DNA of 64,000 nt from a virus, in the IMG/VR virus record IMGVR_UViG_3300036766_000548, positions 1 through 64,000 of that record. One strand, 5' to 3'. Numbering within the stretch: the stretch's first letter is position 1; each line of letters begins with the position of its first letter. Of this stretch, positions 1-58,540 are shown one piece after another. Below the pieces are notes generated by a model. The model was not told where the DNA came from. It saw only the letters and a list, made by a program, of their open reading frames with translations, and did no database searches. The position numbers and the translations under genes were made by a program.

Positions 1-398
1 GCGATTCTGATTTCTTGATAAACAATATAAAGCAGTCTTTTCCTGTAATGTCATTAGTCGGTGAAAACGCCTTGATAACGGCAATATCAAATGATTCTTC
101 CCACGATCTTATTTTTGCCCAACAGATATTCGGCTACGGTAATTTCGGCGATGTGCTGTTGGCTATTAGCACTTCTGGCAACTCTAAAAATATTATTTAT
201 GCCTGTGAGATAGCAAAGGCCTTGGGATTAAAAGTGATAGGATTGACTGGCTTTGATGGTGGCGAGTTGAAGGAATTGTGTGATGTATGCATAAATGTTC
301 CTATAGATACAAAAGAGACATATATCATTCAAGAATATCATTTACCCATCTATCATTTGCTATGTATGGCAATTGAAAACGAATTCTTTGGAGAATAA
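1..398 (+). CDS. SIS-domain sugar-phosphate isomerase, GmhA-like (5' end cut by window)
   Basis: The reading frame is already open at the window edge, so the N-terminus is missing. About 130 residues remain. They match the C-terminal two thirds of a SIS domain: the GDVLLAISTSGNSKN phosphosugar-binding loop, then GLKVIGLTGFDGG, and an IIQEYHLPIYHLLC segment like the QExH helix of sedoheptulose-7-phosphate isomerase (GmhA). Known members isomerise or bind phosphorylated ketoses and aldoses. The next three recognisable genes are an aminotransferase, a CMP-sugar synthetase-like enzyme and a DUF115 protein, so a role in making an activated sugar is likely. The exact substrate cannot be read from the fragment. 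Confidence 0.85.
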   Translation, partial: DSDFLINNIKQSFPVMSLVGENALITAISNDSSHDLIFAQQIFGYGNFGDVLLAISTSGNSKNIIYACEIAKALGLKVIGLTGFDGGELKELCDVCINVPIDTKETYIIQEYHLPIYHLLCMAIENEFFGE

Positions 399-399
399 C

Positions 400-1632
400 A
401 TGAAGAAAAAACTAGATTTGGAATTATTGGCAAAACATGATTTATACCAAATAGAAGGGCCACAATGGGTTAAGGCAAAGAAAGGATATTTTATAGACAG
501 TGATGGCTATAAATGGATTGATATGACTTCTGGAATATTGACTGCAAATACTGGTCATAATAATAAAAAAGTGATTAAGAGTATAATGAAACCGTTAAGG
601 GATGGGATAGTTCAATCATGGTATAGACCTTCTGAATATAGATTAAATGCTCATCTTACTCTACAAAAGGTTTTACCAAAAAATTATACTAAAGCTATTT
701 TTTTAGTTACAGGATCGGAAGCAGTTGAACAAGCGTTGAAAATAGCGAAACATTTTATTGGTGATAAAGATATAATTAGTTTTACTTACAACTATCATGG
801 TTCTACTAATATGGCTTCTTCGATGAATATGATTCGTGAAGAACATTTGCAATTAAAGTCTCCTATTTGTTGCAAAGGATATTGTCCTTACGGAAAAGAT
901 AAATATGAAGGATGTGGGAAAGAATGTTTTGAAAAATCTGTAAAGAATCTAAAGAATCCTGGGGCAGTTATTTTTAGTCCATATCTAGGGGCATATTCTA
1001 CTTGGATGCCAGATGATTATTATTTGGCTTTTATAAAATGGGTAAGAGAAAATAATATATTCACAATTGATGACGAAGTACAATCAGGCTTTTTTAGGAC
1101 AGGAATTAAATGCTTTGGTATTGAAAATAGAGAATGTTATTTTGAACCTGATCTTATTTTAGGAGGAAAAGGCGCGACAGCATTATTACCGCTATCATTT
1201 TTATCTATAAATAATAAAATAAAAGTACCTATTGATGATTATTTTTCTACACATTCTGGCAATCCTGCTTGCTTATCTGCATTGGTTTCAGCTATAGATT
1301 TTTATATTGAAAATAATATTGGATTAAAAGTTGATAATATGGGTTTATATTTACAATTTATGTTAAGAAAATTAAGGCAGAAATATAGCAATATTATTAT
1401 GGATAATTTTGGGCAAGGGCTGGCGCAATCATTATTGTTTGTCAATAATGAACAAGGCAAAAAGTTAGTTCATGAAATATTTGTAGAAATGAGAAATAGG
1501 CATATTTTATTTATGGATACTGAAAGGCCAGTAATTAAATTTGTTCCTCCATTAGTGATAACAAAAAAGCAGATAGATAAAACAATAAACGAATTGGATA
1601 AAGTTATAGGGGAATTATATGGAACCAATTAA
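400..1632 (+). CDS. Class III PLP-dependent aminotransferase (GSA aminotransferase-like)
   Basis: This is a 410-residue fold-type I, class III aminotransferase related to glutamate-1-semialdehyde aminomutase and acetylornithine aminotransferases. Visible hallmarks are TGSEAVEQALKIAK (cofactor phosphate site), YNYHGST, the TIDDEVQSGFFRTG motif holding the Asp that contacts the pyridine nitrogen, and LGGKGATALLPL with the probable Schiff-base Lys257. ATG at 400 is preferred over an upstream TTG at 373 because GGAG lies at 390-393. Family members transfer an amino group or move it within a substrate. The neighbouring sugar genes suggest an amino-sugar or a small-molecule decoration, but this is inference. 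A Cys-rich insert (CCKGYCPYGKDKYEGCGKEC) after the cofactor domain is unusual and could bind a metal. Confidence 0.88.
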   Translation: MKKKLDLELLAKHDLYQIEGPQWVKAKKGYFIDSDGYKWIDMTSGILTANTGHNNKKVIKSIMKPLRDGIVQSWYRPSEYRLNAHLTLQKVLPKNYTKAIFLVTGSEAVEQALKIAKHFIGDKDIISFTYNYHGSTNMASSMNMIREEHLQLKSPICCKGYCPYGKDKYEGCGKECFEKSVKNLKNPGAVIFSPYLGAYSTWMPDDYYLAFIKWVRENNIFTIDDEVQSGFFRTGIKCFGIENRECYFEPDLILGGKGATALLPLSFLSINNKIKVPIDDYFSTHSGNPACLSALVSAIDFYIENNIGLKVDNMGLYLQFMLRKLRQKYSNIIMDNFGQGLAQSLLFVNNEQGKKLVHEIFVEMRNRHILFMDTERPVIKFVPPLVITKKQIDKTINELDKVIGELYGTN

Positions 1633-1939
1633 AATAGGTGAAAGAGTTGGTTTAGTATTAAAAACAAATGTTAGAAAGCATTATTGTTTCTTTTTAGGAT
1701 ATGGCGTTTATGAAGGACAGTTTATTCCTATTGATTCTATAGATAAAAGAGTAAAAAGGTTAAATGAAGAACAAAAAATTTGTTGTAGATTCAAATTGGA
1801 TTCTGGAGAAATTATTTACGATTTTCAATGTTGGTTTATGTCGGAAGAAAGATTTAATGAGGCATTTATAAATGATTGTTATGAAGAAGGATGGAAAATT
1901 ATCAATGTCGACAACAAAGGTAGAAGAAGGCATGTTTAG
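1619..1939 (+). CDS. Hypothetical protein, 106 aa
   Basis: No family recognised. It starts inside the end of the aminotransferase (14 bp overlap) after an AGGGG ribosome binding site, so it is translationally coupled to it. It is a mixed alpha/beta-looking sequence with no signal peptide or membrane segment and ends in a basic GRRRHV. The coupling suggests it belongs to the sugar module, possibly as a small accessory protein. Confidence 0.7.
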   Translation: MEPIKIGERVGLVLKTNVRKHYCFFLGYGVYEGQFIPIDSIDKRVKRLNEEQKICCRFKLDSGEIIYDFQCWFMSEERFNEAFINDCYEEGWKIINVDNKGRRRHV

Positions 1940-2015
1940 ATTATATATAAAAATGTTAATATAAGGCGTAGAACGATTATATGAGCAATAGGCGTATAGT
2001 TCTTCAAATTCTTGT

Positions 2016-2049
2016 ACAAAATCGCATAGTAAAATGATTTAATGGGTTT
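2016..2049 (+). promoter_or_regulatory. Repeated promoter-like motif, copy A
   Basis: ACAAAA, a 10-nt spacer, then AAATGATTTAATGGGTTT. The same 18-bp core occurs at 29164-29181 (plus) and 61668-61685 (minus). It contains an extended -10 pattern (TGA then TTTAAT at 2038-2043). It lies 27 bp before the GTG start of the cytidylyltransferase, whose ribosome binding site AAGGAG follows, so it is well placed to drive the genes to its right. Confidence 0.5.
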
Positions 2050-2075
2050 CAGGCCATTTTATAAGGAGAAAAACA

Positions 2076-2921
2076 GTGACGATAGCATTGATTACAGCTC
2101 GTGGGGGGTCGATAAGACTTCCGAGAAAGAATATTTTGCCATTTTGTGGGATACCATTGATTGCATGGAGTATTTTACAGGCCAAGGGATCAAAATATAT
2201 TTCTGATGTTTATGTTACAACTGATGATTCTGAAATTGCGGATATAAGCGTTGAATATGGCGCCAAAGTAATAATGAGACCAATTTATGATAATGATGTT
2301 TCCGCTGGATATGTATTAAAACTTGCTGTAGAAGAATTGAATAAAAATAATATATATCCTGATGAAATCGTTTATATGCTTCCAACTTCTCCACTTAAAA
2401 AAGTGAATGATTTAGATAGTTTAATTGCTTCTTTTCATAATATAAATGAATATGAGATTGTTGATGATTTGGGTATATGTAGTCCCGATAAAGAATGTTA
2501 TATTTATAGGAATGTTGATAATATGTTGGACAATTATGGTATACCATATAAAATGATTCCTATAATTAAGGATAAATCATGGAATTATTCCAGGACGGTA
2601 GGAGGATGGGGAGTAGCAAAAACAAGATATCTAATGGATTTTTGGAATAAACAAGGAATGTATGATTCTGTAATAGATAGTAAATTAGGTGCCATTGATA
2701 ATGTTCCGGTGTATGGATATGCTATAGAGCCTTGGCAATGTTTTGAAACTGATTATGAAGATTATTTTAGGTTATGTGAATTGATTATGAAAGAATTTAT
2801 ATTAAAAGGAAAAGGAATAAATGCTTATAATTGTTCTTTAATACAAAATAAAGAATCCGATGTTGATAAACAATTCATATTACAATATTCTGGCAATTCA
2901 AAACAATTAGAGGAAGAATAA
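2076..2921 (+). CDS. Acylneuraminate cytidylyltransferase-like (CMP-sugar synthetase family)
   Basis: 281 residues starting at GTG with AAGGAG upstream. The N-terminus TIALITARGGSIRLPRKNI is the nucleotide-binding signature of CMP-sialic, CMP-legionaminic and CMP-Kdo synthetases (consensus ARGGSKxxPxKN). VYVTTDDSEIADISVEYGAKVIMRP and YMLPTSPLKK follow, as expected for this fold. Known enzymes join CTP to a nonulosonic acid or related ketose, giving a CMP-sugar donor. The following gene (3 bp away) is a DUF115 protein, a family that includes Maf-type transferases that use such donors. The second half is more divergent, so the sugar is uncertain. Confidence 0.85.
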   Translation: MTIALITARGGSIRLPRKNILPFCGIPLIAWSILQAKGSKYISDVYVTTDDSEIADISVEYGAKVIMRPIYDNDVSAGYVLKLAVEELNKNNIYPDEIVYMLPTSPLKKVNDLDSLIASFHNINEYEIVDDLGICSPDKECYIYRNVDNMLDNYGIPYKMIPIIKDKSWNYSRTVGGWGVAKTRYLMDFWNKQGMYDSVIDSKLGAIDNVPVYGYAIEPWQCFETDYEDYFRLCELIMKEFILKGKGINAYNCSLIQNKESDVDKQFILQYSGNSKQLEEE

Positions 2922-2923
2922 TA

Positions 2924-4267
2924 ATGGATGAAAAAGAAATAAGGAATATAGAATCGACTATTAAAGCAGAATCTAATATGTATAATCAAGGAACAAAAAG
3001 CGCTCAACTTATACATGAAATTGTTAATTCTGCATATAATCATAAACCAATTATTGATAAGATAAAATCTGGACAAGCAAGGGATATATCCGATAGCGTA
3101 AAAATAACAGGAAATAAAAATTGTTTTATTTTAGGTTCTGGTCCTTCATTAGATGATTCTATACAATATTTGAAGGATTGGGAAGGTGGAATATTTTGCA
3201 CTCCTTCTCATGCTTTGAGTTTAATGTATTACGGAATTGAGCCTACATATATTTTAATACTTGATCCATTTGAGCAATGGGGGGATTTATCCGGGGTTGA
3301 TTGGTCAAAGACAAAAACAAAGTTAATCACTCACCCTGGATGCTATGTGGATTTGATAGAAAATTGGCCTAATGAGATTTTATTGTATTTGGAAAATGCC
3401 GCCAAACCAGATAGTTTTTATCAAGATGAACAACAAAAAATGTATTCATGGCGTACTGGAGATTTCAGAAAATCTACTTTTAATTTTTATATTAGAACCG
3501 CCATAACTATATTTGCTTGCAGCCCTCCAATGGAAATGTTTGCAGCAGAGATATTGGGATATGAAAAATTCTTTTTAGCCGGGTGTGATTTCGCATATCA
3601 TTCTGATAAGCAAAGATTTACTGATTATACAATAAAAGAAGCCTCCAAAATAAGTGACGAAATAATTGAATTATCCAATAGATTTAATGTTCCAATAGAT
3701 AAAAATTATAATAATATAGAATGGGAAAAGCATGAACATCCATTTAATCCTGACAATCCAAATTTGGTGAAAACAAACAGTGGCCTTTTATCAGAATCAA
3801 TACATATTTATTACTTAAAGAATTTAATGTCTGCATGGAGATTATGTGGCAAAACAGTTTATACCACGGATCATGGCGCGATGATACAAGTTCCATATCA
3901 TGATATAAAGGCCGTAATAAAAAAACAAGGTGATTTTCCCTTACAGCATAGGCCCTTTATAAATAAAATATGCGATGCTTATTTGGCTTCTACTGGTGCG
4001 TATGCAATTGAAACTAACCATGGGGTATTATTCGTAGAAAGTATGGATTATGAAAAAGAATTGCCATTATTCATGGTTGATATCATGAAGCGTTATCATT
4101 GTGCGACTTGTGGGGCTTCGATGAATAGCAATGATTCACTTCCTCATGATGGCGATGATTGTCCTAATTGTCATAAAGGTAAAATACAAAGATCGGTTAA
4201 TATTGATAGCGAAATGAATATGAATAGAATAAGAGAAAGCATAAAAAGGTATAAAAATGGCTTATAA
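2924..4267 (+). CDS. DUF115/Maf-like protein with C-terminal zinc ribbon
   Basis: 447 residues. The centre carries the DUF115 (MptE-like) signature: CFILGSGPSLDDSI, then ILILDPFEQW, and later a FFLAGCDFAYH segment. DUF115 is found in bacterial Maf proteins that attach nonulosonic acids to flagellin, in archaeal pterin pyrophosphokinases and in many phages. Near the C-terminus CATCG and CPNCH pairs form a probable zinc ribbon, which is not part of the core family. Position directly after the CMP-sugar synthetase supports a glycosyl-transfer role, for example on a virion or host surface protein. A role as a nucleotide-sugar-binding enzyme of another kind cannot be excluded. Confidence 0.75.
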   Translation: MDEKEIRNIESTIKAESNMYNQGTKSAQLIHEIVNSAYNHKPIIDKIKSGQARDISDSVKITGNKNCFILGSGPSLDDSIQYLKDWEGGIFCTPSHALSLMYYGIEPTYILILDPFEQWGDLSGVDWSKTKTKLITHPGCYVDLIENWPNEILLYLENAAKPDSFYQDEQQKMYSWRTGDFRKSTFNFYIRTAITIFACSPPMEMFAAEILGYEKFFLAGCDFAYHSDKQRFTDYTIKEASKISDEIIELSNRFNVPIDKNYNNIEWEKHEHPFNPDNPNLVKTNSGLLSESIHIYYLKNLMSAWRLCGKTVYTTDHGAMIQVPYHDIKAVIKKQGDFPLQHRPFINKICDAYLASTGAYAIETNHGVLFVESMDYEKELPLFMVDIMKRYHCATCGASMNSNDSLPHDGDDCPNCHKGKIQRSVNIDSEMNMNRIRESIKRYKNGL

Positions 4268-6338: not shown

Positions 6339-8816
6339 ATGCCCGAACAAATTGAAATAGACTTAAAGGGATTCTCAAAAAAGATAAATCCCAAGTTCAT
6401 TCCATTGATAAAGGATCGCCATCCATTACAAATAGTAGTTGGTGGTGCCAATAGTTCTAAATGTTTTGCCAAAGGCATGCAAATTGTAATGTATTCAGGT
6501 GAATTGAAAAATGTAGAAGATATCGTTATTGGTGATTTGTTAATGGGAATTGATTCAACTCCTAGAAAGGTATTAAATACAAATAATGGTTATGGGAAAC
6601 TATATAAAGTATACCAACACCGAGGAGATGATTATACAGTTAATGAAAATCATATTTTATGTTTGAAGAAAAGTAAAAGTTGCAATAGATATAAAGAAGA
6701 TGGAGATTATATAGAAATATCTGTTTCTGATTATTTGAATAAAAGCACAAGATGGAAAAGAAATTTTTTAGGATATAGGACTGGAATTGATTTCTCAAAT
6801 AAGGAAGTTTCTATCGATCCTTATTATCTTGGTTTGTGGTTAGGAGATGGTGATAAAAATAGATTGTCTATTACGTCAATAGATGATGAAATAATAGAAT
6901 ATATATATGATTATGCCAAGAAAATAGGCGAGCGTGTTTCAATGATAAATAAATATGGCTATAATATCAATCATATTAAATATTCAAATGAAGTAAAGAA
7001 AGAGATTGCTAATATTTTTGCTAATGGTATTGTTGGCCATGGTTGGAAAAAAGGAACATTGAGATTAGTATGTGATAAAACTGGAATAAGTAATAGAGTA
7101 TGTTATCAATGGCTGAAAAATAAATCATTCATTAAATTGGTGGAATATTATAAGAAGCATCCAAAAGAAATTGATTATGATATAATTGAAAAAGAAAAAC
7201 AACAGGAAACACTTTACAGTAAGTTTGTTGAATATAATCTATTTTACAATAAGCATATTCCTAATGATTATTTATATAATTCATATGATATTCGATTAAA
7301 GTTATTGGCTGGAATTATTGATACTGATGGAAGTATGAAGGCTAATTGTTATACAGTAATTCAAAAGGATGAAAAATTATCATTCCAAATAAAGTATTTA
7401 GCTAATTCATTAGGATTCAAGTGTTCAATAACTAAAAGAAAATGTGAATGTGTTAATAATGGAGTGATAGGCGATTACTATTCAATGTGTATTTCTGGTA
7501 ATACTGAAAAAATACCTTGTAGGATAAAAAGAAAGATAGTAAAAAATCAAAGTGATAGAAAAGATCATTCGGTAATAGGAATTGATATTATTCAAATGGA
7601 AGATGGCGAATATTATGGATTTACTGTAGATAAGGATAATAAAGTTTTACTATCTGATTTTACAATAACACACAATTCATATAGCTATGCAGAAAAGATT
7701 ATTTATCATACAATACGGGAAAAGTATTTCCGGTGTTTGGCTACACGAAAAGTAAAAAAGGATGTAAAGCATTCTGTCTACGATCAATTGCGCGAAGTAT
7801 TGAATAGGTATAAATTAGAAAACTATTTCACTTACAATAATACTGAAAGTAATATTGTTTGCAAGTTGAATGGAAATGATATATTAGGCGTAGGTCTTGA
7901 TGATGTAAACAAATTAAAATCATTCACCAATCCTACATTCTTTTGGGCAGAAGAAGCTGATCAAATGACTCCAGATGATATTGAGCAATTAAGTCTACGA
8001 TTGCGTGGCCCTGACTATTGTTTCTTTCAAGGTGGATTGACATTAAATCCAATCAACGCCCAGCATTGGATCAAGTTAAAATATTTTGATCATAAGAATG
8101 ATGGGTGGATAACACATCATTCTACATATAAGGATAATCAATTCCTTTCGCCTAAAATTATTCAAAGAATGGAAGCGATAACTGATCCATATTATATAAA
8201 AGTATATGTGAATGGAGAATGGGGAATATTTACAAATGGTGTATTCTCAAATTATATAATAGAGGATTTTGATTATACAGAAAACGATTTAGAAGATGTT
8301 TGTTATGGAATGGACTTTGGATTTACCCATGCCCAGGCGATTGAGTGCGCTGGATTCAAGGATGGCGAATTATATGTATTTGACGAGTTGTGGGAAAAGG
8401 GGAAAACAAACAATCAATTCATGGATGATGCGAAAGACTATTTCGGTGATAAATTATATGATATGAGGATGACATGTGATTCCGCCGATCCTGACAAGAT
8501 AATAGAATGGGATAGAAGTGGATTTAGAGTAGAATCCGCGAAAAAGGGCCCAGGATCAGTGCGGTTTGGCATTGAATATTTGGTTGATAAAAAGATACAT
8601 ATACATGAAAGCAAGTGTGCCAATATCGCAAAAGAGATTCAACAGTTCAGGCGCAAAGAAGACAAGAATGGAAATGTTACTGAGGATTTTATAGAAGTGA
8701 ATGATGATGGAATAGCGGCATTGCGATATGGTACTGAATATATTTGGTCAAATACAAATCAAGTTTTTTATGATGGCACTAATGATAAATGGTCATTAAG
8801 CGAATTGGGATTATAA
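6339..8816 (+). CDS. terL: Terminase large subunit with in-frame intein
   Basis: 825 codons. Removing an intein (residues 42-446) gives a ~420-residue terminase of the PBSX/SPP1 type. Splicing would rebuild the Walker A region as GGANSSK-SYSYAEK. Further marks are FFWAEEADQM (Walker B with catalytic Glu) and the nuclease half beginning YGMDFGFTHAQA, with CDSADPDKI and NDDGIAALRYG supplying acidic metal ligands. The protein translocates and cuts concatemeric DNA during head filling. Without protein splicing the ATPase site is split, so packaging would depend on splicing. It is followed 14 bp later by the portal gene, whose RBS is AAGGAG. Confidence 0.93.
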   Translation: MPEQIEIDLKGFSKKINPKFIPLIKDRHPLQIVVGGANSSKCFAKGMQIVMYSGELKNVEDIVIGDLLMGIDSTPRKVLNTNNGYGKLYKVYQHRGDDYTVNENHILCLKKSKSCNRYKEDGDYIEISVSDYLNKSTRWKRNFLGYRTGIDFSNKEVSIDPYYLGLWLGDGDKNRLSITSIDDEIIEYIYDYAKKIGERVSMINKYGYNINHIKYSNEVKKEIANIFANGIVGHGWKKGTLRLVCDKTGISNRVCYQWLKNKSFIKLVEYYKKHPKEIDYDIIEKEKQQETLYSKFVEYNLFYNKHIPNDYLYNSYDIRLKLLAGIIDTDGSMKANCYTVIQKDEKLSFQIKYLANSLGFKCSITKRKCECVNNGVIGDYYSMCISGNTEKIPCRIKRKIVKNQSDRKDHSVIGIDIIQMEDGEYYGFTVDKDNKVLLSDFTITHNSYSYAEKIIYHTIREKYFRCLATRKVKKDVKHSVYDQLREVLNRYKLENYFTYNNTESNIVCKLNGNDILGVGLDDVNKLKSFTNPTFFWAEEADQMTPDDIEQLSLRLRGPDYCFFQGGLTLNPINAQHWIKLKYFDHKNDGWITHHSTYKDNQFLSPKIIQRMEAITDPYYIKVYVNGEWGIFTNGVFSNYIIEDFDYTENDLEDVCYGMDFGFTHAQAIECAGFKDGELYVFDELWEKGKTNNQFMDDAKDYFGDKLYDMRMTCDSADPDKIIEWDRSGFRVESAKKGPGSVRFGIEYLVDKKIHIHESKCANIAKEIQQFRRKEDKNGNVTEDFIEVNDDGIAALRYGTEYIWSNTNQVFYDGTNDKWSLSELGL
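6462..7676 (+). mobile_element. Intein with LAGLIDADG homing endonuclease inside TerL
   Basis: 405 residues from Cys42 to Asn446 of the terL product. The N-terminal splice block begins CFAKGMQIVMYSGE with block B TVNENH. The C-terminal block ends FTITHN followed by Ser, the expected HN/S splice junction. Two LAGLIDADG-like helices, LGLWLGDG (about residue 164) and LAGIIDTDG (about 322), mark a homing endonuclease. The insertion lies exactly inside the ATPase P-loop, a classic intein target because it cannot be lost imprecisely. All splice residues seen are intact, so it is probably active. Confidence 0.92.
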
Positions 8817-52144: not shown

Positions 52145-52267
52145 TTAATTCTCACAGATAATAGCGAGTTGACCACAAGCAGCACCGGCGTTAATTTCGG
52201 CTTGTGTCGCGATTGCAATGGCATAATCATAACCAGACTTCTGTAATTCTTCCTTAATGCGTTCCAT
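52145..52267 (-). CDS. RlmN-type C-terminal methyl-carrier segment as a separate 40-aa protein
   Basis: Begins MERIKEELQKSGYDYAIAIATQ and continues with EINAGAACGQLAIICEN. In RlmN and Cfr the C-terminus reads roughly ExxxxFxxxLxxxG...RGxDIDAACGQLA, where the Cys carries the methyl group to the RNA. Here the same AACGQLA is on its own protein, with AAGGAG and ATG, overlapping the end of the adjacent radical SAM gene by 14 bp. The matching core enzyme (53376) lacks this end. It may complete that enzyme in trans. Confidence 0.65.
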   Translation of the reverse strand: MERIKEELQKSGYDYAIAIATQAEINAGAACGQLAIICEN

Positions 52268-53069
52268 ATATTTCTCCTTCTACTAAAATAGGATCGTCGA
52301 TAAATCCGTTCCTCAAAGAATGAATATCAAGTACTAAATTACCCGCAATGCATTTCATTTGATTATTTACTTCACGTTGATATATTTTTGGATATGGATA
52401 TTTGTTGTATATAAAATTAGCACATGAACAACCGTCCCTTTCCATTGATATTGTTTTTCTATAACCAATTAAATCATTTATTGCGACATAATGATTGACA
52501 CTATAATCGTTTACTTTCATAAGACCCACAAATCCAAAATCCAATACTCCTTTATTTGAATAATATTCTATATATTCATTTATTTTTTCGTTTGAATCAA
52601 CAAGTCCTTTTTGTAGAACGCATGATAAATGCAATTTATCATTCCCATAAATATCAATCATTGAATCAATCTCGAAATCGTTTATTGAATGCCTACTTAA
52701 TGAAATACTATTCACTAATTCATTATTCAACTCGATGCCCTTTCTAGTGTTTATAATTATAAACATTTCAGGGAAAAATGACCGTATCAATTTACATGCC
52801 TGTTCTACCTCATTAGTAAAATATCCTGGCTCACCTCCAGTAAAAGAAACCCTGTTTATATTGATATTTTTGTCTTTTATGCTAGTCAAAATATAAGACA
52901 AAAGGTCCAAAGAAAATACATCCTTTTTATCTGAACTATATACACAAAATGGACACCCCATATCACAATAATCAGATACGCGAATAAATAAATTAACATA
53001 AGGATCGCAATATTTTTGAGATAAACAATCAAAATTTTTTGTCTTTACAACATCTATCCAACTAGACAT
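52254..53069 (-). CDS. Radical SAM protein, cassette enzyme 1 (271 aa)
   Basis: CDMGCPFC at residues 35-42 is the CxxxCxxC cluster-binding loop, and FTGGEPGYF (GGEP 78-81) binds SAM. The rest shows a partial TIM barrel with extra Cys near the C-terminus (DGCSC and MKCIAGN). It begins 3 bp after the Cys-rich peptide gene and overlaps the 40-residue gene. Its reaction is unknown. A role in modifying the neighbouring peptide or an RNA is plausible. ATG 53069 chosen over an in-frame TTG upstream. Confidence 0.82.
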   Translation of the reverse strand: MSSWIDVVKTKNFDCLSQKYCDPYVNLFIRVSDYCDMGCPFCVYSSDKKDVFSLDLLSYILTSIKDKNININRVSFTGGEPGYFTNEVEQACKLIRSFFPEMFIIINTRKGIELNNELVNSISLSRHSINDFEIDSMIDIYGNDKLHLSCVLQKGLVDSNEKINEYIEYYSNKGVLDFGFVGLMKVNDYSVNHYVAINDLIGYRKTISMERDGCSCANFIYNKYPYPKIYQREVNNQMKCIAGNLVLDIHSLRNGFIDDPILVEGEIYGTH

Positions 53070-53071
53070 TT

Positions 53072-53362
53072 TTAGCAATGCCCACTACCACAACCACAAC
53101 CACCGCTACTACCGCCTCTATTTATATCACTAGAATTAATAATCTTTTTTTTACTCATGTTTTTAATAGGCTTGTCCTCACAATATTTATTATCGATAAA
53201 ATGAATTAGTAAATCAAAACACTCATTAGATATGGCGCCGTCAATATGGAGCTGATTTATTCTTTTATACACATTTATTATACCATTTGTTTTTATGCTC
53301 TCTTTTATACTCGGTAGCCAGAATTCCATTTCTTCGTTCAATTCTCTTTCATTTGATTGCAT
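53072..53362 (-). CDS. Cys/Gly-tailed protein, candidate radical SAM substrate (96 aa)
   Basis: MQSNERELNEEMEF starts a helical, acidic 80-residue region, followed by a GGSSGGCGCGSGHC tail. The N-terminal part could be a leader or docking domain and the tail a modified core, like a RiPP precursor. An alternative is a metal-binding tail. RBS GGAG is 9 bp upstream of ATG 53362. It lies between two radical SAM genes in a tight operon (stop to next ATG 2 bp). No family recognised. Confidence 0.7.
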   Translation of the reverse strand: MQSNERELNEEMEFWLPSIKESIKTNGIINVYKRINQLHIDGAISNECFDLLIHFIDNKYCEDKPIKNMSKKKIINSSDINRGGSSGGCGCGSGHC

Positions 53363-53375
53363 TTTTAGTACTCCT

Positions 53376-54161
53376 TTATATGATATTAATGCCTTGAATG
53401 GCACCATTTCCCATATTGTTTTTCTCAGAAATCGTATTTTTATTTATTGGTGATAACTTGATAAAAAATCTATTCTTGTCAAAAAGTCTCTTTAATTCTT
53501 CTATATCAAAATCGCCTTCTTCAACCAATGTCATGTTAATAGTTGTTTTAAGATTGCTTTTGGTCCGTATATTGCTTAATTGTTCTAGTGTCATTTTATT
53601 TTTATATGGAATAAGCCAATTTCGTTTTTCATTTTTAAGAGAATGCACGGATATTTGAAGGGTTATGTTGTCCTTTATCCAAGAAAAATCAGAACCAATA
53701 ATGCCTATCGTAGAAATATAATGATGAGTTTTAGGATATTTTTCATCTATTTTAAATATAGCATCCTTTACATTATCTATATTTAGGAACGGTTCACCCA
53801 TTCTAGTATAATTTATCTTGTGTTCAAATGCTTCTTGAAAACGTTCAGTTCTTTTAGATAAAACAAATTCAACTTGTTCCACAATTTCTTGCGATGTAAG
53901 GTTCCTGTATTTTTTCATTGCACCCGTAGCACAAAATTTGCATCTAACTGGACATCCCGACATCGTAGAAACGCCAATCATCCAACGTTCTTTTCTACTC
54001 CCTATTTTTGTATCATGAAGTATATTTTGTTTTTGTCCAATAGCATCTTTAGTATATGAAGGCAAAAATGTATCGGTTACCTCAATAAGAAAATTATCTT
54101 CTGTTTTTAAGGCATATACAATTCCATTTGCGAATTCTTTATGCTTAATTTCTGTCAACAT
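53376..54161 (-). CDS. RlmN/Cfr-like radical SAM core lacking the C-terminal end (261 aa)
   Basis: GCPVRCKFCATG (C70, C74, C77) is the cluster motif. RMGEPFLN (121-127), ISTIGI, LQISVHSLKNEKRNWLIPYKNK and INMTLVEEGDFDIEELK follow the RlmN order, with FIKLSPINKN last. RlmN normally continues ~60 residues with a methyl-carrying Cys (Cys355 in E. coli). Here the stop comes first. The Cys118 partner seven residues before the cluster (E. coli numbering) is Gly63. So by itself it is not a standard rRNA methylase. Confidence 0.8.
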   Translation of the reverse strand: MLTEIKHKEFANGIVYALKTEDNFLIEVTDTFLPSYTKDAIGQKQNILHDTKIGSRKERWMIGVSTMSGCPVRCKFCATGAMKKYRNLTSQEIVEQVEFVLSKRTERFQEAFEHKINYTRMGEPFLNIDNVKDAIFKIDEKYPKTHHYISTIGIIGSDFSWIKDNITLQISVHSLKNEKRNWLIPYKNKMTLEQLSNIRTKSNLKTTINMTLVEEGDFDIEELKRLFDKNRFFIKLSPINKNTISEKNNMGNGAIQGINII

Positions 54162-54251
54162 TTACCATCTCCTTATTCCATTTTCTACTATTCAATGTCG
54201 TAACCAAATCATCCACATCTCCAGTATAATATCTCCAATAATCCCGCTTGT

Positions 54252-55226
54252 CTATTTTGTTATATTCCCTTGACCAATATCCTTTGCCTTATTATTATGA
54301 TCTATACAAACATCCAAACAATTTTTTCTGCAAATAAGATCGTTATAAGTATTTGTTTTTTCAAACCATATTTTTCTTTCTTGTCTAATTTCTTTAATAG
54401 ATTTCCCATAAACATTCCCAATAGCTTCGCCTTGCTCGCGCATATAAATTACACAAGGAAAATGTTTTCCATGTAAAATAACCATATCATCTTTTACTAA
54501 ATGGCATTTATTGCAATCGGTTTCTTTCATGCCTCTAACATGCCTTCCATTATTTATATTATTGATCCTATATTTCAATATCTTATATTTTGTTTTTACG
54601 TTTATATTCAAATAATGATTTGATTGTGCTGTAGGAATAATTCTAATATCTGATACTTTTAATTTAGTTGCAAATTCAATAATATTTTTCAATTCATCAT
54701 TATTTTGTTTGTCCAATACCACCCCTACAGTTACATAAGTCAATTTAGATAATTCTTTTATAATCATCGCTATATGCTCAAAATGAGAATTGGTCCCTGC
54801 CATAATATCGGCAGTAGAAGAGCAACAGGCATCTAGCGAAATTGAAAAATCATTTATTCCGGCTTTGTGTAATTGCTTATAATATTCTAATTCTGCCGAT
54901 CCATTTGTAGAAATAGCAATATGTTTAATACATTTTTTGCTTTTAGTGTATTGAACCAATTCTAATAAATCTTTCCATATAGTAGGCTCACCACCTGAAA
55001 ATCTTATATTATGTAAATTAGCAGAAGTCCAGATATCTACAATTTCTTTTGCTTGCTCTAAAGTTAAATCCCCTTGAAGGTCTTTTACTATCCCTCGGCA
55101 ATAAGGACATTTGAAATTACAACGATTAGTCAATATCAATTCACACCGTTGTAAATCACTTTCCCAAGAAACGTTTTTTGCCCTTTTATCGGAAAGAGTA
55201 TAAAATCCAATATCTTCAAGTTTCAA
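54252..55226 (-). CDS. Radical SAM protein with SPASM-like C-terminus, cassette enzyme 3 (324 aa)
   Basis: TTG start after AAAGGAG. CNFKCPYC (36-43) is the cluster loop and FSGGEPTIW the SAM-binding turn. The C-terminus has further Cys: TDCNKC, FPCVIY and CRKNCLDVC, like a SPASM/Twitch domain that holds auxiliary iron-sulfur clusters. SPASM enzymes modify peptides, for example in RiPP maturation. It lies between primase and the RlmN-like gene. This supports peptide modification, but the substrate is inferred only from neighbours. Confidence 0.82.
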   Translation of the reverse strand: MKLEDIGFYTLSDKRAKNVSWESDLQRCELILTNRCNFKCPYCRGIVKDLQGDLTLEQAKEIVDIWTSANLHNIRFSGGEPTIWKDLLELVQYTKSKKCIKHIAISTNGSAELEYYKQLHKAGINDFSISLDACCSSTADIMAGTNSHFEHIAMIIKELSKLTYVTVGVVLDKQNNDELKNIIEFATKLKVSDIRIIPTAQSNHYLNINVKTKYKILKYRINNINNGRHVRGMKETDCNKCHLVKDDMVILHGKHFPCVIYMREQGEAIGNVYGKSIKEIRQERKIWFEKTNTYNDLICRKNCLDVCIDHNNKAKDIGQGNITK

Positions 55227-57805: not shown

Positions 57806-58540
57806 TTAAAAACCTTTATAAACATAAAATATTCCATCCTTATCCCACATATATCCATAACCCAATTTCCAGATTTCCCAAACTTTATTAAAAAAATCAA
57901 TAGCTATTGAATCTTCAGAAATAATAGATGCGGCTGACTCTGCGGCTGACTCTGCGGCTGACCATGCGGCTGACCTTGCGGCTGACCTTGCGGCTGACCA
58001 TGTGGCTGACTCTGCGGCTGACCATGCGGCTGACCATGCGGCTGACCTTGCGGCTGACTTTGCGGCTGACTTTGCGGCTGACTTTGCGGCTGACCATGCG
58101 GCTGACTTTGCGGCTGACCATGCGGCTGACTCTGCGGCTGACCATGCGGCTGACCTTGCGGCTTCATAAGTATCAAACACTTTCCAATTTTCTTTTATCT
58201 CGCCATGATTATCAAACCATTTTACATTCTTGATGTCATTTATGAATTTCTGAGCATTCAACCACCATTCATTTTTAATATTACCTTTTGCATCATACCT
58301 TACGCCAGCAACACCAAAGCATTTTGCCATCTTATCCATATGGCCATCATTTATTCTTTTAGCAATCTGTACGGGAACCTTTTGCCAATTCTCATGGTGA
58401 GTACCAGCAATTCCATAATATTTTTCTATTGCTGAATGTCCGATAGCATCTTCAAATTCAAGTCCTTTGGCCTCGATGATGTCATCTTCAAGCCAATACA
58501 ATTTCCGTCCTACTGATACCCAAGAACAAAAATCGCACAT
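57806..58540 (-). CDS. Repeat-containing protein with (SAAx)19 tract, 244 aa
   Basis: The N-terminus (MCDFCSWVSVGRKLYWLEDDIIEAKGLEFEDAIG) and C-terminus look globular. Between them 19 consecutive four-residue units of SAAW, SAAE, SAAK or SAAR form a helix-like tract, encoded by 12-bp tandem repeats. The tract should be length-variable. The N-terminal sequence holds a CDFC pair. Function is unknown. RBS AGGAGG. Confidence 0.65.
   Translation of the reverse strand: MCDFCSWVSVGRKLYWLEDDIIEAKGLEFEDAIGHSAIEKYYGIAGTHHENWQKVPVQIAKRINDGHMDKMAKCFGVAGVRYDAKGNIKNEWWLNAQKFINDIKNVKWFDNHGEIKENWKVFDTYEAARSAAWSAAESAAWSAAKSAAWSAAKSAAKSAAKSAARSAAWSAAWSAAESATWSAARSAARSAAWSAAESAAESAASIISEDSIAIDFFNKVWEIWKLGYGYMWDKDGIFYVYKGF
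57929..58163. repeat. 12-bp tandem repeat, about 19 copies
   Basis: Unit TGCGGCTGACYN with variation at the last bases, continuous over ~230 bp. All three minus-strand frames and one plus-strand frame are open across it because no stop fits the unit. It encodes the SAAx tract and is a likely site of slippage-driven length change. Confidence 0.9.

Follow-up and report, generated by a model that had tools for sequence, protein, structure and literature searches.

A split RlmN/Cfr-type enzyme and a Cys-tailed protein with its own radical SAM partner in a phage gene cluster

RlmN and Cfr are textbook radical S-adenosylmethionine (SAM) methylases, in which a carrier cysteine and a resolving cysteine, both held to be essential, reside in one polypeptide chain. 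The C118A variant of E. coli RlmN no longer forms 2-methyladenosine in tRNA and traps a Cys355-CH2-adenosine adduct, which has been crystallised with tRNA (PMC5130265, PMC9692996). Here, we describe a set of five viral genes, termed P0001 to P0005, that includes a relative of these enzymes with a different architecture. The genes lie in IMG/VR virus record IMGVR_UViG_3300036766_000548, of whose 78,011 bases we analysed a 64-kb stretch, hereafter the window. Four of the five genes make up two conserved units. P0002 and P0005 together correspond to a single RlmN/Cfr-type enzyme, with P0002 as its minimal catalytic core and P0005 as a protein of its own that bears the methyl-accepting cysteine, and P0003 and P0004 form a conserved pair of a Cys-ending protein and a dedicated radical SAM enzyme, while P0001 is a neighbour. 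A first-pass annotation of the sequence had joined all three radical SAM enzymes into one system around a Cys-tailed peptide; it overlooked that the RlmN-like tail is the methyl-carrier half of a split enzyme, as well as the loss of the resolving cysteine and the nicotinamide adenine dinucleotide (NAD)-salvage islands in which relatives of these genes are found.

A split RlmN/Cfr-type enzyme

P0002 (261 aa; positions 53376–54161, minus strand) comprises a β-hairpin and a radical SAM barrel with the motifs CPVRCKFC and TRMGEP. The protein matches RlmN and Cfr in family models, and a profile search against the PDB returned RlmN at 6e-21 and Cfr at 9e-17—with the alignment spanning core positions 56–241 only. 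The AlphaFold2 model of P0002 had a predicted local distance difference test (pLDDT) score of 91.2, and its Foldseek matches at E<0.001 were limited to RlmN and Cfr. The N-terminal RNA domain of RlmN is missing, with 69 residues ahead of the first cluster cysteine as compared to 128 in Klebsiella RlmN. Moreover, P0002 contains no cysteine beyond the three cluster ligands, and Gly63 occupies the position of RlmN Cys118. The chain ends in '...GINII', at the very point where fused relatives continue into the methyl-carrier cysteine segment.

This segment is supplied by P0005 (40 aa; 52145–52267, minus strand), which had been annotated as an RlmN-like tail and indeed reads ...AGAACGQLAIICEN, with Cys31 of its AACGQL motif as the counterpart of the methyl-carrying Cys355 of RlmN. 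The decisive test of homology was a profile–profile comparison, in which hhalign aligned a profile of 13 tails to full-length RlmN over 35 columns that coincide exactly with the C-terminal Cys355 segment (single-comparison E of 1.5e-5). A concatenated core-plus-tail hidden Markov model proved too weak, gaining 2–8 bits over the core alone on five of seven fused RlmN proteins and failing to do so on BUCTxx99 and L037b. We consider it likely that the tail serves as a methyl or methylene carrier in trans.

A scan with the aligned cores retrieved 79 loci, 67 of them distinct in the sense that their cores differ over a 100-residue stretch. Within the stretch of sequence covered at each locus, a tail ORF was found in 65 of the 67, in 41 cases at most 70 bp away from the core or overlapping it and in nearly all cases within 3 kb; one of the two loci lacking it, L085, has a tail 5.6 kb off, in the overlapping locus L104. 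The tail lies 3' of the core in most loci and ahead of it in L008, other genes intervene in about 20, and the jumbo Vibrio phage D479 carries two tail copies in tandem. Besides D479 and many IMG/VR contigs, the named phages with the split include Kehishuvirus 'tikkala' (a crAss-like phage of Bacteroides), Moorella phage MTATph1, Pectobacterium phage Arno18 and Yersinia phage P778. The split is thus old and fixed, across phages of very different groups. One tail (L099) is damaged by an apparent frame error, but the same split point, conserved residues and a ribosome-binding site of its own recur in dozens of divergent phages, which rules out sequencing error or decay as the source of the arrangement and leaves this explanation with practically no probability.

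The position of the resolving cysteine is equally uniform, being Gly in all 67 distinct split cores with a readable motif and Cys in all seven fused RlmN proteins compared. As the fused set includes phage proteins that likewise lack the N-terminal domain and nevertheless retain Cys118, domain loss alone does not account for the loss of this residue. Taken together with the C118A trap, the replacement suggests that the phage enzyme has another route of product release or leaves the 40-aa protein on its substrate. In its opening steps the pair would act as RlmN does, but as it lacks the two cysteines in one chain and the N-terminal domain, we do not class it as RlmN. A search of the available literature found no description of a split RlmN.

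A Cys-tailed protein and its radical SAM partner

The second unit consists of P0003 (96 aa; 53072–53362, minus strand), whose C-terminus is GGSSGGCGCGSGHC, as annotated, and P0004 (52254–53069, minus strand), which we refer to as rSAM-B. The latter most likely starts at ATG 53069 (MSSWIDVV), right after the stop codon of P0003, rather than at TTG 53078, up to which its frame is open. Nearly all relatives of rSAM-B are accompanied by a protein of about 80–210 aa with Cys as the last residue, commonly in the pattern '...D(P/G)C(S/G)(R/H)G...(S/T/R/P)xC'. The final residue was Cys in 22 of 22 aligned P0003 relatives, with a second Cys about 10–14 residues upstream of it in most of them, and the rest of the sequence is variable. 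An automatic count placed a Cys-ending neighbour within 150 bp of 20 of the 33 rSAM-B relatives, as against 2 of 181 background genes. Crude gene calling caused this count to miss genes, and reading the loci raised the figure to about 31 of 33—a value that is partly manual, the remainder having been judged by eye, and that includes the doubtful locus L144, where the neighbour is repetitive and has no terminal Cys in the frame read. The exceptions are the closely related L020 and L115. Duplicated Cys-tailed genes were seen in L057 and L104. As a separate observation, the possible partner gene of L144 (2309–2746) contains four GHPACGNGYPSGGY repeats and could encode a multi-core precursor.

P0003 had no match of meaningful E-value in Pfam, NCBIfam or PHROGs and, as sole query, no match in phage records; P0004 as sole query of the viral scan likewise had none, and an alignment query alone reached its relatives. 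For P0001 and P0004, PADLOC returned no more than general viperin-type matches. Across 22 aligned relatives, rSAM-B has four invariant cysteines besides those of the radical SAM motif (C18, C153, C217 and C219, numbered from the TTG start), which may hold an auxiliary Fe-S cluster. No Pfam call for a SPASM or twitch motif was obtained 3' of the P0004 barrel, and the four extra cysteines are arranged otherwise. The AlphaFold2 model (pLDDT 84.6) was closest in Foldseek to CteB (5why), followed by viperins, GDGT-MAS, EpeE and SkfB, all of them distant at template modeling scores of about 0.5.

In bacteria, rSAM-B is rare: three samples of Clostridia and Bacilli relatives, which overlap one another, had it in 2 of 391, 5 of 288 and 2 of 238 genomes, respectively. 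The bacterial relatives, which include Firmicutes metagenome-assembled genomes (MAGs), have a Cys-tailed gene adjacent or one gene off; three MAG lineages additionally carry a HemN/HutW/STM4012-like radical SAM gene alongside. We also note that a Cys-tailed protein is encoded in one operon with rSAM-B in the bacterial loci L130–L133, L157 and L161–L164, some of them with the HemN-like radical SAM gene. The unit displays, at the gene level, features of ribosomally synthesised and post-translationally modified peptides (RiPPs), namely a conserved small neighbour gene and conserved core residues in an otherwise variable peptide, and can be called RiPP-like; this part of the first-pass annotation holds for the P0003/P0004 pair and fails for the three enzymes as one set. 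It is likely that rSAM-B modifies the Cys-tailed protein, making P0003 the putative scaffold or precursor of the adjacent enzyme. Neither of the two units appears to have been described previously.

Linkage of the units and their neighbourhoods

The co-occurrence of the P0003/P0004 pair with an RlmN-like core and tail, already noted for the window, was found in many phages. The rSAM-B query alone retrieved 16 loci, ten of which (on nine distinct contigs) have a split core within about 3 kb. The rSAM-B gene is flanked by core and tail, or forms a fusion with the tail as in L069, in the window and in L004, L044, L054, L055, L056, L057, L061, L067, L069, L086 and L088, and the Cys-tailed peptide gene is often found in the same interval. 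In other loci, the interval holds another kind of radical SAM enzyme together with a short methyltransferase-like gene, and the core/tail pair thus seems to accept cassettes, often radical SAM ones. As an observation on such alternative cassettes, those beside the core in L002, L005, L008, L051, L063 and L104, usually within the core–tail interval, feature a different radical SAM protein, often one with a long gap in its Cys motif (CNMN...GNCYFC), and most also encode a short class I methyltransferase-like protein (LDFGSGYNPKKGYKTCD). No split core was found in the bacterial genomes with rSAM-B or in the huge-phage records, with the bacterial ones showing an ordinary RlmN-level match only. Homologues occurring apart, which the first-pass annotation had named as a refutation of its system, were therefore found in part, as each unit also exists without the other.

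Both units recur next to genes of NAD salvage. Of 27 records having both genes, 15 have NAMPT at most 6 kb from the core (2.8 expected under uniform placement), and the corresponding count for NMNAT-type genes is 15 of 23 (2.6 expected), whereas the ribonucleotide reductase control gave 0 of 17. For rSAM-B, PnuC was found within 4 kb in six of the eight genomes or records having both, with 0.26 expected. These figures come from a set with near-duplicate records (L079/L083) and many fragments, and from a simple uniform null. A NAD gene is present in 21 of the 79 loci with a core and in 9 of the 23 viral loci with rSAM-B, compared to 2 of 58 loci of the P0001 family taken as a control; flank lengths vary somewhat among these three sets. 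In one MAG (G684), the Cys-tailed gene and rSAM-B sit inside a near-complete NAD cluster of NadE, Prs, NadD, PnuC, NadR, ADP-ribosylglycohydrolase, PncC, NtrR-like and NAD kinase genes, and the huge phage LR745206 has the order PnuC, NadR, Cys-tailed gene, rSAM-B. We further observed, in locus L151 (Vibrio phage 496E54-1), a fused RlmN without the N-terminal domain and with Cys118 beside NAMPT and phosphoribosyl pyrophosphate (PRPP) synthetase genes, an arrangement by which the NAD neighbourhood extends to the unsplit form. The literature available for searching held no description of radical SAM genes with NAMPT in phages or of PnuC/NadR with radical SAM peptides.

The remaining member of the annotated set, P0001 (54252–55226, minus strand), is a MoaA-like radical SAM protein outside the module. 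Among 58 IMG/VR loci of its family, none has a core or tail within 4 kb and one has an rSAM-B, which excludes P0001 as a member of the system and separates it from the other two enzymes with which it had been grouped. Its SPASM-like label found no support in Pfam either, the calls in P0001 and P0004 being Radical_SAM and Fer4_12 only. The family, recognisable by the motif 'DIGFYTLSD...RCELILTxxCNFKCPYCRG', is widespread among phages (L166–L216) and apparently undescribed; in L166 the gene is followed directly by RtcB, and in L167 NadE lies two genes downstream.

All five ORFs were found in the sequence at the claimed places, in the claimed order and on the minus strand, and the three enzymes keep their CxxxCxxC and GGEP or MGEP motifs (CNFKCPYC/GGEP in P0001, CPVRCKFC/MGEP in P0002 and CDMGCPFC/GGEP in P0004). 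The spacing, given for the last four genes as gaps or overlaps of a few bases, needed correction along with the P0004 start: P0001 and P0002 are 90 bp apart, P0002 and P0003 are 13 bp apart, and P0005 and P0004 overlap by 14 bp. Good ribosome-binding sites precede P0001, P0002, P0003 and P0005. A different frame of the 90-bp gap (54162–54251) is open, GYWSREYNKIDKRDYWRYYTGDVDDLVTTLNSRKWNKEMVNVDRN, but has no start codon, and is perhaps a gene remnant. Elsewhere in the window, we noticed a protein in which imperfect AAxSAAW/E/K repeats extend over a long run (57806–58540), a terminase-like ORF seemingly with an intein-like insert (6339–8816) and, at 1–4267, genes for SIS, class III aminotransferase, cytidylyltransferase and MptE-like proteins that resemble a phage-borne sugar-nucleotide (sialic-acid-like) biosynthesis.

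Possible chemistry, rival explanations and known systems

We propose, with an even chance of being right, that the four genes belong to a radical SAM system that combines a methylene carrier, detachable from the core, with a Cys-tailed scaffold and is linked to NAD metabolism. The 40-aa protein would dock on the core and complete its barrel, whereupon a first SAM would methylate Cys31 and a second would yield a 5'-deoxyadenosyl radical and, from it, a Cys-S-CH2 radical on Cys31 that adds to an sp2 carbon of the substrate. Because the RNA domain is gone and NAD genes are neighbours, a nucleotide or nucleotide-linked substrate is likelier than 23S rRNA, and because an invariant Gly stands in for Cys118, a group in trans might have to resolve the adduct, or the adduct might itself be the product. 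The 40-aa protein would thus act as a detachable methylene carrier or tag. In turn, rSAM-B, with its probable auxiliary Fe-S cluster, would modify the C-terminal Cys region of the RiPP-like scaffold; where the pairs adjoin, the one-carbon unit and the scaffold would probably serve one NAD-linked product. That substrate or product is NAD-linked at all we rate at slightly under an even chance. We consider it a long shot that the end product is a covalent conjugate or a modified NAD; in this 'stalled RlmN' version, a Cys-S-CH2 bridge would attach the 40-aa protein to NAD or a related nucleotide, at the adenine or at a different sp2 carbon, or else the CH2 would be handed to the Cys-tailed scaffold. 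If true, phages and some Firmicutes would make a protein–nucleotide conjugate or modified NAD, possibly unusable by NAD-degrading host defences.

Several observations weigh against the proposed system. A tblastn search of the window's own 78-kb record returned no NAD-salvage gene, NAMPT and NMNAT included, and proximity to NAD genes does not imply action on NAD, given that some cores also have RtcB, Tpt1 or RNA-ligase-like genes nearby. The binding of the tail to the core is predicted from homology. Most phages have the core and tail without rSAM-B, and huge phages and bacteria have rSAM-B and the Cys-tailed peptide without the core, so that a joint product is not required. Finally, the tail–rSAM-B fusion of L069 is a single case in which the tail retains its start Met, and may reflect a lost stop codon.

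The RNA-linked neighbours, together with phage tRNA clusters near the Arno18 enzyme and the fused BUCTxx99 enzyme, fit an explanation in which the split RlmN methylates C2 (or C8) of adenosine in tRNA or rRNA, one conceivable purpose being the protection of tRNA against anticodon nucleases of the host. The carrier would then act in trans, another residue would serve as the base, and the Cys-peptide pair would be a separate neighbour. RlmN and Cfr, the closest proteins by sequence and fold, both act on RNA, yet the RlmN N-terminal domain is absent, the residue needed for methylation is invariantly Gly although fused phage RlmN proteins without that domain keep it, and NAD genes are the more specific neighbours; we regard RNA modification as possible but rather unlikely. 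The view of the first-pass annotation, taken here as a classical phage RiPP in which all radical SAM enzymes modify the 96-aa peptide for cleavage and release as an antimicrobial or signal, draws on the small Gly/Ser/Cys-tailed protein beside such enzymes, on the rSAM-B fold, to which CteB, EpeE and SkfB come nearest of the peptide enzymes, and on the duplicated and repetitive partners of L057, L104 and L144. However, P0001 falls outside the module, the core and tail mostly occur without the peptide, a NAD context is unusual for a bacteriocin, and reading of the loci brought up neither a peptidase nor an exporter beside the pairs (no systematic search was made), which renders this view unlikely.

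An invariant C-terminal Cys on a flexible Gly/Ser tail in an otherwise variable sequence also recalls TglA (PMC9016710), and the NAD clusters would suit a cofactor or metabolite built on that Cys and cut off, with regeneration of the scaffold. Here, however, the Cys is genetically encoded and would be consumed on release, and neither a releasing protease nor a PEARL ligase was noticed, although no search was aimed at them; such a pearlin-like cycle is distinctly improbable. As the core has no conserved Cys besides its cluster ligands and the peptide gene often lies between core and tail, the Cys-tailed protein could instead provide in trans the resolving thiol lost by the split RlmN. With most split cores lacking the peptide, and the peptide and rSAM-B occurring without a core in huge phages and bacteria, this is very improbable.

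With its carrier moved to a protein of just 40 residues and its resolver lost, the large phage family of the split enzyme amounts to a natural C118A trap, and it opens to testing whether a methylene carrier works in trans or is left behind on the substrate. An apparently undescribed RiPP-like family of phages and rare Firmicutes is added by the Cys-tailed protein and its dedicated radical SAM enzyme, and the position of these genes in NAD clusters points to novel NAD chemistry with a possible bearing on the contest between phage and host over NAD.

Among described systems, TglA and the pearlins share the reactive C-terminal Cys on a small ribosomal protein, but in P0003 it is the encoded last codon rather than an addition by a tRNA-dependent ligase, and the partner is a radical SAM instead of a nonheme iron enzyme. 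The ranthipeptide and sactipeptide maturases CteB, SkfB and EpeE, and viperin, have the folds nearest to rSAM-B, and a small partner protein stands alongside as in RiPP pathways; rSAM-B differs in lacking a SPASM/twitch call and in the placement of its extra cysteines (one N-terminal, one mid-chain and a C-terminal CxC). STM4012/HutW HemN-like proteins resemble the radical SAM relative between or beside the Cys-peptide and rSAM-B genes in bacterial operons; this relative scores below the family cut-offs. In the phage version, which often has the split RlmN alongside, it was not observed. The phage NAD+ reconstitution pathways NARP1 and NARP2 have NAMPT and NMNAT genes in common with many relatives, where these genes adjoin the split RlmN, but they were not found in the window's record; the described pathways are not known to include a radical SAM step. 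The fused phage RlmN-like proteins of Salmonella phage Arash, Aeromonas phage Ahp1, Stenotrophomonas phage BUCTxx99 and Vibrio phage 496E54-1 also lack the N-terminal domain and, in 496E54-1, also adjoin NAMPT and PRPP synthetase genes, but are single polypeptides (with GGGCGQLW fused) that retain Cys118. With RlmN and Cfr themselves (PDB 3RFA, 4PL1, 5HR7 and 9P0P), the phage enzyme shares the CX3CX2C and MGEP motifs, the barrel fold and the ACGQL methyl-carrier cysteine, and it differs from them in having that cysteine on a separate 40-aa protein, Gly in place of Cys118 and no N-terminal RNA-binding domain.

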